Positions 1,489 through 6,214 of a stretch of 6,214 nucleotides of DNA are shown in pieces. Source of the DNA: a bacterium (lineage in GTDB: Bacteria > UBP15 > UBA6099 > JAJRTR01); assembly GCA_024278215.1 (NCBI GenBank), contig JAJRTR010000129.1, forward strand, positions 1-6,214. Reading direction: 5' to 3'. The notes under the pieces are model-generated. The model did no database searches. It saw only the letters and a list, made by a program, of their open reading frames with translations, and had not been told where the DNA came from. Made by a program: the position numbers and the translations under genes. Within the stretch, counting starts at the first letter, position 1. Every line of letters begins with the position of its first letter.

Positions 1489-2310
1489 TTACTCGAGCAA
1501 ATCGAGAACAGCAGGATCGGGCTCGATGCCGTGCCGCGCCGCTATTGAAAGGATGTATTTTTTCGACGGTTTTGTTATATTGCCGCCACAGACCGACGTT
1601 TTCAGATATACATCAGCGGCATGTTCCACAGTTTCAATAAGAGCAAGCGCGTCGCAGGTTGTCGCACCGGAAGCGATAACCCCACGATACTGCATAAGTG
1701 CCGCCGCCTGACGCTGCATCCCTTCCGCGACAAGCGTGCCGAGGTCGTCTTCAGATGCAACTCCCGTGATCATGCCACATCCCCGCGGGAGAACCGCAAC
1801 ACTTTCCGGGTGCATCTCCCACACAAGTTTCGAGAGGCTTTTCGTGTCGAGTTCAGCGGAATAAGAAAGAGCCGTCGCGCCGGGGCAGCGGGCGTGGATA
1901 ACAATTCTTTCATCAACCATTGCTGCTTTGCGGCGGACACCGTGGCAATGAAGATGCGTCGGAAACCCGCTCATCGGTCTGCCGGTTTCCTTCATCCCCC
2001 AGATAAGCCTGAAGCTTTCCCCGGACGGGTTTATCTCGACAACACCGAGGCAGTCTTTGCGGTCGGGCGCATTGCCGTGGAAACATGCGCCGGTGCCTGC
2101 GACAAGGTAGTAGTCGCCTGCTGTTTCCGGAATCCTGACGCCTGTTTCAGTCCAGTTGCCGCCGCGAAAGAAATCTTCGTCGAGCTGTCCGGGAGTGAGC
2201 CGCGCACTGATCGTGCAAGTGTTCCTGCATGTCCAGCCCTTTTCCCACAGTTGCCGCGCAGCTTTGATTATTTCTTCGCACAATTCTCTGAATGTCGGTT
2301 CTTTTTTCAT
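1489..2310 (-). CDS. RhaD-like (rhamnulose-1-phosphate aldolase family) protein with a degenerate active site
   Basis: 273 residues from the ATG, almost the length of E. coli RhaD (274), which cleaves L-rhamnulose-1-phosphate to DHAP and L-lactaldehyde using zinc. The match is collinear from LWEKGWTCRN near the N-terminus through LGVVEINPSG, RIVIH and the LPRGCGM segment to the C-terminal ETVEHAADVYLK helix. Against E. coli RhaD as I recall it, catalytic E117 is G115, zinc ligand H141 is kept as H139, H143 is R141, H212 is R209, and E171 is kept as E169. The phosphate-loop NGGN is NTCT (30-33). Metal binding and aldolase chemistry are therefore doubtful. A THLHCH run at 118-123 offers other possible ligands. 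The frame is intact, so it is not an obvious pseudogene. A GTG at 2340 would add ten residues, but the ATG at 2310 has a better ribosome site and matches family length. No other rhamnose gene is nearby. Fold assignment is strong; function is unknown. Confidence 0.85.
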   Translation of the reverse strand: MKKEPTFRELCEEIIKAARQLWEKGWTCRNTCTISARLTPGQLDEDFFRGGNWTETGVRIPETAGDYYLVAGTGACFHGNAPDRKDCLGVVEINPSGESFRLIWGMKETGRPMSGFPTHLHCHGVRRKAAMVDERIVIHARCPGATALSYSAELDTKSLSKLVWEMHPESVAVLPRGCGMITGVASEDDLGTLVAEGMQRQAAALMQYRGVIASGATTCDALALIETVEHAADVYLKTSVCGGNITKPSKKYILSIAARHGIEPDPAVLDLLE

Positions 2311-2590: not shown

Positions 2591-3712
2591 ATGAGAAAAT
2601 TCGTATTCTGTCTGTTCTTCGCTGTCGTGCTGCTTGTTATAACAAACATATCCGGCACGGTGAGTGCTCCGAATCTCGATCCGCTCGATTACAACCCGTC
2701 GGATTTTCCGCTTGACGAACCGCAACAAGTGGAAGTGCGCACACTCCTGCTTCTTGACATGAACCAGGAACTCGACCCACTCAGCATCACAGATTACAGG
2801 AACATTCTAAAGAGAGCGGCGGCGGCTATCAAGAGAGATTACGGCGTCGAACCGGTCTTTAAGATCGAGAACTATATCATGCCGCGCAAACAGTTCCTGG
2901 GTGCACGCTACCGGGACTTATGCGTCCGCGATTACGCGACACTCGCTGTGCCGAAAAGCAAGCGGGAAATAATCGACAGCTATTTCAAGGATATTCCTGA
3001 AACCGAATACTGCTATTACAATCTCGATTATTTCAAACTGCACCTGAGGCAGATTCCTGTGGATGTAACACTTACGAATTATCTTCTTCTCGACCCGTCG
3101 GCGTCCACACCCAATGATATTGTTGCCGGAGCAGATACACCTGTTTCCGCATCGAAGTTCCTCGAATCGACATTGCTTTCAGTGTTCCCGTACATCGGCA
3201 GATATAATTTTCTGGAAGACGACCCGCGCCGGCTGATCCCGGCGGAAGAACGCAAGGACAAGCTCGCGTATGAAATTGCGAGGCGGCTTTCGCGCACAAT
3301 GCTGCATCTCGGCGAAGTCGATTCCGGCAACTGTATTATGAGCAAAGATAAAGATGTCGCCTATGCCGCATTTATGGGTGATAACGGTGGAGACAAATGC
3401 AGCTCATTCACCCGCTCGCTCGACTGGGACATTACATATCTCGGCGAGTTGCTCGCGGCGCGTAAGTATGCCGCGGCTTCGAAAAAAACAGAGCGGATCA
3501 GGGAAACGAATTATGGTGATACACGCCTGGGAATAGTGCTTGACATCTTTGCTGTTGTCCTCAGTAATAAGCCCGGCGGGAAAAAAGGCATAGCGAATGA
3601 ATGCGGCGGAATAAAGAATATTTCTGATGAGAAAAAACTTGAGCGGGAATTTGCCGGAATTGAACGATATATTGAAAGTGCACGCTCGATCTGTAATAAA
3701 CAGTCGCAATGA
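2591..3712 (+). CDS. Exported protein of unknown function, possible very divergent metzincin-like fold
   Basis: 373 residues. I do not recognise the family. The N-terminus is a clear signal peptide: MRK, a hydrophobic stretch at about 4-19, and a likely cleavage site near VSA (24-26). After it come six Cys (111, 141, 248, 270, 338, 368), which suits disulphides in an extracytoplasmic protein. Several features recall metzincin proteases: an N-terminal strand-helix unit (VEVRTLLLL then a long helix, 48-84), a helix at 224-240 ending in H239, and then GEVDSGNCIMS (241-251) like a Met-turn followed by another Cys. However, there is no HExxH, so this is only a hint. The reading frame extends upstream to 2486, but those codons fall in the inverted repeat. 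The ATG at 2591 has GGAAAG (2584-2589) just before it, though the spacing is tight, and it places the signal peptide at the terminus. It is followed by a hairpin and appears monocistronic. Confidence 0.72.
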   Translation: MRKFVFCLFFAVVLLVITNISGTVSAPNLDPLDYNPSDFPLDEPQQVEVRTLLLLDMNQELDPLSITDYRNILKRAAAAIKRDYGVEPVFKIENYIMPRKQFLGARYRDLCVRDYATLAVPKSKREIIDSYFKDIPETEYCYYNLDYFKLHLRQIPVDVTLTNYLLLDPSASTPNDIVAGADTPVSASKFLESTLLSVFPYIGRYNFLEDDPRRLIPAEERKDKLAYEIARRLSRTMLHLGEVDSGNCIMSKDKDVAYAAFMGDNGGDKCSSFTRSLDWDITYLGELLAARKYAAASKKTERIRETNYGDTRLGIVLDIFAVVLSNKPGGKKGIANECGGIKNISDEKKLEREFAGIERYIESARSICNKQSQ

Positions 3713-4018: not shown

Positions 4019-6214
4019 ATGCTCGGAAAAATCATAAAGATACTTGTTGTAGCGATTTTTGTTGTTTCACTGATTATTTATATCGGAGTGCAGATGTTCA
4101 TGCGGGGCGGATTGCCGGAGTATTCGGGCAAAGTCACTGTGGATGACGGCACGCTCGGTGCCGATGTGAGGGTGATTCGGGACAAATACGGTGTCCCGCA
4201 TATAACGGGCGAAACAGAGAAGGATGTATATTTCGCACTCGGCTATGTACACGCCCAGGAACGGCTGTTCCAGATGGTGCTCACACGGCTCGTGGTGCAG
4301 GGCCGCCTGTGTGAACTTGTCGGCGATGCGCCCCTGAGCAGCAGTTTCGGCCATGCCACCATTCTCGCCCAGGACCGCTTCAACCGAATTATCGGCTTCA
4401 AGCAACTTGCTAAAGCAGGCGGCAAACTGATGTCGCCCGAGACAGTCAGTTTGCTCGACAGCTACACGGCAGGCGTTAACACTTACATCAAAACAGCGAA
4501 AAAACTGCCGCCCGAATTCACACTCCTCGGCTACGAGCCCGAACCGTGGACCCGAGAGGATACCATATCGCTCGGCAGGTTCATGGCCTGGGGGCTGTCG
4601 TCGAACTGGAAACGCGAACTCTACAGGCTTGCGGCAATTGGTGAGTTGGGACTCGAACGCGGCTGGGAGTTCCTGCCCCGGTATCCCGACCACGGCCCCT
4701 ACATCATCGAACCGGATGTGAAGAAATATGATCCGCGGGGTAAAACTATCAGAAAGAATCCGCTGCCTGTGCCGCCGGAAACACTCAAATGGCCGGTTAT
4801 TAAAGCATTGCTCGATGTAGACATACCAATCGAGGGATTGCCGATCATGAGAGGCACGGACATTGCAAGCAACAGTTGGGTCGTGTCCGGCGCGCACTCG
4901 CGGAGCGGTGCGCCGATACTTGCCAACGATCCGCATCTCGTGCATACACTCCCATCGGTTTTCTTCCAGGCCCACCTGAAAACCACCGACGGCGCTCTGG
5001 ACGCAATCGGTGTCACATTCCCCGGTATTCCCTGCATGATGCTCGGTCACAACAGGAATGTCGCATGGTCCGCCACAACAACGAGGGCCGACACACAGGA
5101 CCTCTTTGTCGAACGGGTGAATCCGGATAATCCCGACCAGTATTTCTATATGAACGGATGGCGTGATTTCGACAAGCGCGACGAGGTCATAAAGATAAAA
5201 ACGGATGACGGCTACAGAGAAGAGAAACTGGTGGTCAGGTCTACGATTCACGGCCCGGTCCTGAACGACGTGCTCGGAGTGGTGGCGGAAAACGCACCGC
5301 CTGTTGCCCTTAGATGGACGGGCCAATCCCCATCCCAGGACCTCGATGGTTTCTTTGCGATGGCACGCTCGAAAAATGCTGCCGACTACAGAAACGCAGT
5401 CGCCTATATAGGTGTGCCTGTCCAGAACTGGGTGTATGCAGACAGGGAAGGCAATATCGGATATATAGCAAGCGGTTATTACCCCCTGAGAACCCGTAGC
5501 GACGGCACTCTTCCTGTACCCGGATGGTCAGGCTTCTATGACTGGCGCGGATTCGTACCCTACAGCGAACTGCCGCGGCTTGAGAACCCGTCCAACGGCA
5601 TAATAATTACCGCCAACAACGCTGTTGTGCCCGAAAAAGACTACCCGTTCATTGTTTCGTTCAGTTACAAGTACTACCGGGCATTGCGCATAAAGGAACT
5701 ACTCGCGTCGAAGGAAAAGTTCACTGCGGACGACATGAGAAAATTCCAGGTGGATCATCTGACAAAACAGGGCGAACGATTGACACCTGTGTTTCTCACG
5801 GCTTTTGAGAATGCAGGCGATAAGAACGATAACCTCGCAGTGGAAGCGGCAAAAGCGCTTTCGAAATGGGATTTTCAGGCCGCTCCCGACAGCGTCGGAG
5901 CCGCTATTTTCCACACGGCCTATGCCGAAGCTGTAAAGTTAATGTACAGTGACGATGTGTCCCGCCCGCTCCTGAGCTACATTCTCGGCGCGAGCGGCAT
6001 CGAGCCGGCTCTGGACATCGCTTTCGAGACCGGCGAAAACAGCTTCTTCGACAAATCGGACACCGAAAAAAAAGAGACGCGCGACGACATACTTGCCGAA
6101 GCTGTTTCAGTGGCGGCGCACAGGCTCGCAAAACGGTTCGGCAACAACCTGAAGAAATGGAAATGGGGCAAAATCCATATACTCAGGCTGGCGCATCCTT
6201 TCTCGAACAGGAAG
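4019..6214 (+). CDS. Penicillin acylase (penicillin amidase) family Ntn-hydrolase precursor, 3' end outside the window
   Basis: 732 codons are open to the window edge; the last 70-100 residues of a typical member are missing. Family members cleave amide bonds of acylated substrates (beta-lactams, acyl-homoserine lactones, other N-acyl compounds) and mature by self-cleavage into two chains. The N-terminus is a basic MLGKIIK followed by a hydrophobic helix (about 4-25), an export signal or membrane anchor, so it acts in the periplasm or outside. The alpha-chain part shows RDKYGVPHI and GYVHAQERLFQM, then EPEPWTRED. The beta chain should begin at S284 in ASNSWVVSG, the usual SNxW nucleophile, followed by ILANDPHL, GHNRNVAWS, and ADTQD (357-361, calcium-site region). 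ITANN (N533/N534) corresponds to the oxyanion-hole Asn region. WKWGKIH then HPF near the edge is also typical. All key residues are present. GGAGG (4003-4007) precedes the ATG by 11 nt, rather far. Family certain; substrate not determinable. Confidence 0.93.
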   Translation, partial: MLGKIIKILVVAIFVVSLIIYIGVQMFMRGGLPEYSGKVTVDDGTLGADVRVIRDKYGVPHITGETEKDVYFALGYVHAQERLFQMVLTRLVVQGRLCELVGDAPLSSSFGHATILAQDRFNRIIGFKQLAKAGGKLMSPETVSLLDSYTAGVNTYIKTAKKLPPEFTLLGYEPEPWTREDTISLGRFMAWGLSSNWKRELYRLAAIGELGLERGWEFLPRYPDHGPYIIEPDVKKYDPRGKTIRKNPLPVPPETLKWPVIKALLDVDIPIEGLPIMRGTDIASNSWVVSGAHSRSGAPILANDPHLVHTLPSVFFQAHLKTTDGALDAIGVTFPGIPCMMLGHNRNVAWSATTTRADTQDLFVERVNPDNPDQYFYMNGWRDFDKRDEVIKIKTDDGYREEKLVVRSTIHGPVLNDVLGVVAENAPPVALRWTGQSPSQDLDGFFAMARSKNAADYRNAVAYIGVPVQNWVYADREGNIGYIASGYYPLRTRSDGTLPVPGWSGFYDWRGFVPYSELPRLENPSNGIIITANNAVVPEKDYPFIVSFSYKYYRALRIKELLASKEKFTADDMRKFQVDHLTKQGERLTPVFLTAFENAGDKNDNLAVEAAKALSKWDFQAAPDSVGAAIFHTAYAEAVKLMYSDDVSRPLLSYILGASGIEPALDIAFETGENSFFDKSDTEKKETRDDILAEAVSVAAHRLAKRFGNNLKKWKWGKIHILRLAHPFSNRK

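Follow-up and report, generated by a model that had tools for sequence, protein, structure and literature searches.

Gene content and surroundings

The window, meaning the whole 6,214-nucleotide stretch of DNA that was analyzed, is one whole contig. The following features were located in it:

28-1347, (-) strand: gene for an HD-GYP-like protein, downstream of P0001; HHE..DGSGYP is kept, and the first motif, HDICF, is without the usual Gly-Lys
1489..2310, (-) strand: P0001, a RhaD-fold protein of 273 aa; ATG at 2308-2310, with an AGGTGA Shine-Dalgarno-like sequence just upstream, as read from the sequence
2407-2538: palindromic element of ~120 bp with 19-nt terminal inverted repeats (2414-2432 / 2514-2532) and a fold z of -8.3
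2591-3712, (+) strand: predicted secreted protein of 373 aa with a signal-peptide-like start and 1.9% Cys
4019-6214, (+) strand: penicillin-acylase-family protein, cut by the contig end

Orthologues of the HD gene were found at 52-56% in all six relatives from the phylum, which indicates that the contig belongs to the genome. The HD-GYP-like protein also has a long conserved N-terminal region outside the Pfam coverage. An operon of P0001 with the HD gene was considered and is unlikely because the gap between the two genes measures 141 bp and a promoter-like site lies directly ahead of the HD gene. In the neighborhoods examined, the HD orthologues of five relatives have other neighbors, none of which is P0001. 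Pfam, NCBIfam and PHROGs gave no match to the 373-aa secreted protein. For the penicillin-acylase-family protein, a paralogue at 54% is encoded elsewhere in its own genome, and relatives occur in the phylum.

About 20 near-complete copies of the palindromic element (87-98% identical) are present elsewhere in the genome, and short direct repeats border several of them, for example gtataacgt (L150) and gtgcctgct (L151). With its inverted repeats, its ~20 copies and these flanking direct repeats, the element looks like a MITE. P0001 and the secreted-protein gene start divergently on either side of it.

The initial annotation had remarked that P0001 has no neighbor from the rhamnose pathway, and a wider search extended this observation. 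L-rhamnose isomerase (RhaA) was searched for with PF06134, for which controls from E. coli, B. subtilis and Bacteroides were all positive, and it was not found in the P0001 genome (95% complete) or in the six phylum relatives. For rhamnulokinase, the P0001 genome gave only weak generic sugar-kinase matches.

Fold and active site of P0001

The P0001 reading frame consists of 273 codons translated with no internal stop, so the earlier description of a full-length frame with a ribosome site held. The product is a single-domain protein that matches PF00596 (Class II aldolase/adducin) over residues 12-236 (61.2 bits against a cut-off of 22.2; 1.6e-16). Its best match among solved structures is E. 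coli RhaD (1gt7; 5e-34, residues 12-269), to which it aligns nearly end-to-end at 28% identity. The core of this alignment had been described as free of gaps, but short gaps were found near residues 47-62 and at 183-185. The fold was predicted with AlphaFold2 from an alignment that included 36 relatives, and the resulting model (pLDDT 88.5) bore out the retention of the RhaD fold, with a Z of 33.6 and 2.0 A over 263 residues when placed on 1GT7. The model also resembles FucA (Z 20.4), another protein of the aldolase II fold, and 8iah_1, a chain of the spectrin-actin junctional complex (Z 18.3), and the fold matches pyruvic oxime dioxygenase and the NovR/TqaM oxygenases as well.

In RhaD, Glu117 is the aldol-cleavage residue and the zinc is held by three His residues (PMC5434028). 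The corresponding positions of P0001 are as follows:

2212..2229, (-) strand: CRNTCT, residues 28-33, formerly the ERNGGN phosphate-binding motif, of which G31 and N32 are kept in all ~85 aligned relatives
2083..2094, (-) strand: loop TGAC, residues 73-76, equivalent to RhaD S75-F78; lowest model confidence by pLDDT
1966..1974, (-) strand: Met-Ser-Gly, residues 113-115, at RhaD T115-S116-E117; catalytic Glu lost
1888..1896, (-) strand: His139-Ala-Arg141, at RhaD H141-x-H143; second zinc ligand lost
1804..1806, (-) strand: Glu169, equivalent to RhaD E171; kept
1684..1686, (-) strand: Arg209, at RhaD H212; third zinc ligand lost

The replaced codons were those reported in the initial annotation, namely Gly115 in place of E117 (1966-1968), Arg141 in place of H143 (1888-1890), Arg209 in place of H212 (1684-1686), and NTCT in place of the RhaD phosphate motif N-G/A-G-N (2212-2223; G31C and N32T). 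The zinc ligands of RhaD are H141, H143 and H212, and P0001 keeps the first only. RhaD N29 and S116 are kept, as are H141 (His139) and E171 (Glu169), the latter two in agreement with the earlier account. Further losses are those of T115 (Met113), E27 (Cys28), W209 (Met206) and K233 (His230). No other His or Glu was aligned at the ligand positions of P0001, and the losses withstood the alignment check that had been proposed for them.

P0001 also changed beyond its active site (W206M, G186S and K230H), and it is rich in Cys, with ten residues (3.7%) compared to 1-7 Cys in the family and to a share of 0.2-0.3% in the neighboring HD and acylase proteins. In the alignment, C28, C32, C76 and C142 lie at or adjoin former phosphate-loop or metal-strand positions. 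The phosphate and active-site loops of P0001 have reduced model confidence. The mean pLDDT of model block 71-80 was 56 in P0001, falling under 50 at 74-76, compared to 86 in the canonical sister protein (L012), although the P0001 alignment contained no close relatives, which alone lowers model confidence. Adenine-directed hypermutation was considered as a source of the losses, several of which replace A by G at the second codon position, and was dropped because codons with A there are no more than ordinarily frequent (a share of 0.26 in P0001 and 0.245 in the sister).

It is very improbable that these changes stem from faulty assembly or sequencing of the metagenome-assembled contig, or that the contig comes from another organism. 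The contig is only 6.2 kb long and belongs to a draft genome, but several independent in-frame codon changes, some of two or three bases, would have had to occur without a frameshift, and the neighboring genes match the order well.

Relatives and sequence constraint

The comparison set comprised ~85 RhaD relatives, 80 of which came from the GTDB collection (the best 80 of 486), together with others. None of these aligned relatives is without E117, H141, H143, E171, H212, G31 or N32, and E117G, H143R, H212R, G31C and N32T are found in P0001 alone when it is compared with E. coli RhaD and the whole set. In FucA/AraD-like relatives, which are more distant, the acidic residue is present, as are the first and the third His. 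Two of them (L106 and L108, from the phylum of the Phycisphaerae bacterium genome G098) have HAQ, with Gln at the second zinc His, and keep the Glu and the third His. By these comparisons, the P0001 losses lie outside normal family variation.

The initial annotation had raised the question of whether the Gly/Arg/Arg pattern is common to a clade, and the searches found it in one sequence only. The aligned GTDB relatives, the best 80 of 486, were all canonical. The pattern was likewise absent from 392 genomes searched in the phylum of G098, from 386 relatives and from the phylum of G041, where nothing but canonical or more distant proteins turned up. The viral contigs searched contained no relative. 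Plasmids yielded 57 records, none of which reached 60% identity; among those listed, most carry a rhaD annotation, and the one plasmid relative read residue by residue (L011) was canonical. Of the seven genomes searched in the phylum of P0001, five lack a match. The nearest relative, L012 (= L002) from bacterium DeMMO6_30 of the same order, is 37-38% identical and has the canonical residues, as does the next one, L013 from the Phycisphaerae (33%). With all aligned relatives and the nearest relative canonical, the pattern has so far been seen in a single genome. That genome encodes a second class II aldolase-like protein (L009), which has GN, S-x-E, HTH and NHG motifs.

P0001, L012 and L013 form one clade in the tree, with support of 98/68 for P0001 with L012 and 90/73 with L013. 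The P0001 branch is 3.41 changes per site long compared to 1.07 for L012, a roughly threefold difference. P0001 keeps 16 of 27 invariant residues (11, or 41%, are changed), while L012 keeps 26. The catalytic invariant columns were changed only somewhat oftener than the others, and a clustering of changes at the active site was not upheld, the columns being too few for a claim of enrichment. Constraint on P0001 is loosened outside the active site too, which goes beyond what had been considered when the gene was judged to be maintained rather than decaying.

Indirect evidence speaks for that judgment. Among the 73 sites at which L012 equals L013 and P0001 is different, the replacements are conservative, with a mean BLOSUM of -0.06 compared to -0.95 +/- 0.22 when shuffled (P 0.0002). 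In its synonymous codons P0001 resembles the neighboring genes, at 0.091 per codon compared to -0.18 (SD 0.036) for a composition-only control, or ~7 SD above it. In a crude neutral simulation that used a single starting gene and no indels, 1% of genes were left without a stop at 60% identity, a level that approximates the share of invariant residues lost by P0001, 6% at 80%, and 30% at 90%. With its open frame, host-like codons and conservative replacements, the P0001 frame is probably not neutral debris.

These data bear on the possibility that P0001 is in early decay, its pathway lost with RhaA, selection on the aldolase ceased, and its frame open by chance. We consider this unlikely. The isomerase, which was found in none of the phylum genomes searched, fits such a history by its absence, as do the long branch, the spread of the invariant losses over the active site and the rest of the protein (the sister has changed 1 of 27), the insertion of the repeat element ~100 bp upstream of the P0001 start, and the lower model confidence of the active-site loops. 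Neutral change of 41% of the invariant sites, on the other hand, would leave only ~1% of genes stop-free in the simulation, and the conservative replacements and the retained codon bias also speak against decay. A shorter neutral phase, at 10% divergence, would still leave 30% of genes open, and a recent relaxation on top of an older, long constraint may have taken place.

Proposed interpretation as a pseudoenzyme

P0001 is a real, unusual single-sequence variant of a known family, and by its sequence it is probably a non-catalytic RhaD-fold protein. Under one definition, a pseudoenzyme is recognized by a missing conserved catalytic motif (PMC10211241), and such a motif is missing from P0001. 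We somewhat favor the view that P0001 is a RhaD-derived pseudoenzyme that is kept for a binding or structural role. The unique losses, retained predicted fold, open frame, conservative replacements, codon choice, lack of a detected RhaA and the adducin precedent together make this reading slightly better than an even prospect, while the single sequence, the long branch and the losses beyond the active site also fit relaxed constraint.

The proposed course of events is as follows. The ancestor of P0001 would have been a canonical class II aldolase of the RhaD type. According to the model the core fold is retained, while the catalytic Glu, two of the three zinc ligands and most of the phosphate motif are gone. 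Given the established chemistry of RhaD, P0001 would then hold no catalytic zinc, form no enediolate and cleave no rhamnulose-1-phosphate. By analogy with adducin, it may persist in a binding or scaffold role, folded and probably as an oligomer. Where the metal-bound enediolate once sat, the pair of new Arg residues could form a metal-free pocket for an anion.

P0001 resembles E. coli RhaD (PDB 1GT7) in its whole-length homology, its predicted fold and its retention of N29, S116, H141 and E171; it differs in E117G, H143R, H212R, N32T and T115M and in the lack of a detected L-rhamnose isomerase in its genome. The L012 gene, like that of P0001, stands alone outside any visible rhamnose operon and adjoins a histidine kinase gene, but all of its catalytic and metal residues are intact and its branch is one third as long.

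The head domain of adducin, which has the class II aldolase fold, is missing catalytic His residues and functions as a tetramer that binds proteins. The class II aldolase domain of adducin/Hts shares its fold with P0001 (Z 18.3 to 8iah) as well as losses of catalytic His, but it is the N-terminal domain of a larger cytoskeletal protein and is 16% identical to P0001; the His losses in the two appear to have arisen independently. In the Trichoplax adducin domain, two of the three His are diverged and no metal was taken up in models (PMC12599920).

A more specific proposal is that the zinc site was replaced by an Arg/Cys site with a new function, such as anion sensing, redox or a new reaction; an uncultured bacterial phylum would have arrived at it independently of adducin. 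This we regard as rather improbable. Doubtful to a greater degree is the reading in which P0001 is active and its site has been rebuilt, so as to carry out another reaction through His139, Glu169, Ser114 and the new Arg and Cys residues, or through a Cys-held metal. The ten Cys of P0001 are the reason to think that such an enzyme might be Cys-based, and the location of C28, C32, C76 and C142 along former phosphate-loop or metal-strand positions would suit it. The superfamily has changed its chemistry before, as in pyruvic oxime dioxygenase and NovR/TqaM, which share the class II aldolase fold; these are active iron enzymes, whereas P0001 is without two of the three His ligands. In addition, the Cys pattern is common to no relative, and the C76 region has the lowest model confidence.

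The literature search found no work combining 'pseudoenzyme' and 'rhamnulose', which is weak evidence of novelty only. If P0001 is maintained, it would parallel in a bacterium the change of adducin from an aldolase into a binding domain, as a RhaD relative that lacks the metal site and has a canonical relative from the same order available for comparison.

The scores against the RhaD family models carry a practical warning for annotation. P0001 scored 159.2 against TIGR02624, for which the cut-off is 400.95, while the NCBIfam model NF002963 accepted it by a hair (170.7 compared to a cut-off of 170 bits), and automatic annotation would therefore label P0001 a rhamnulose-1-phosphate aldolase.
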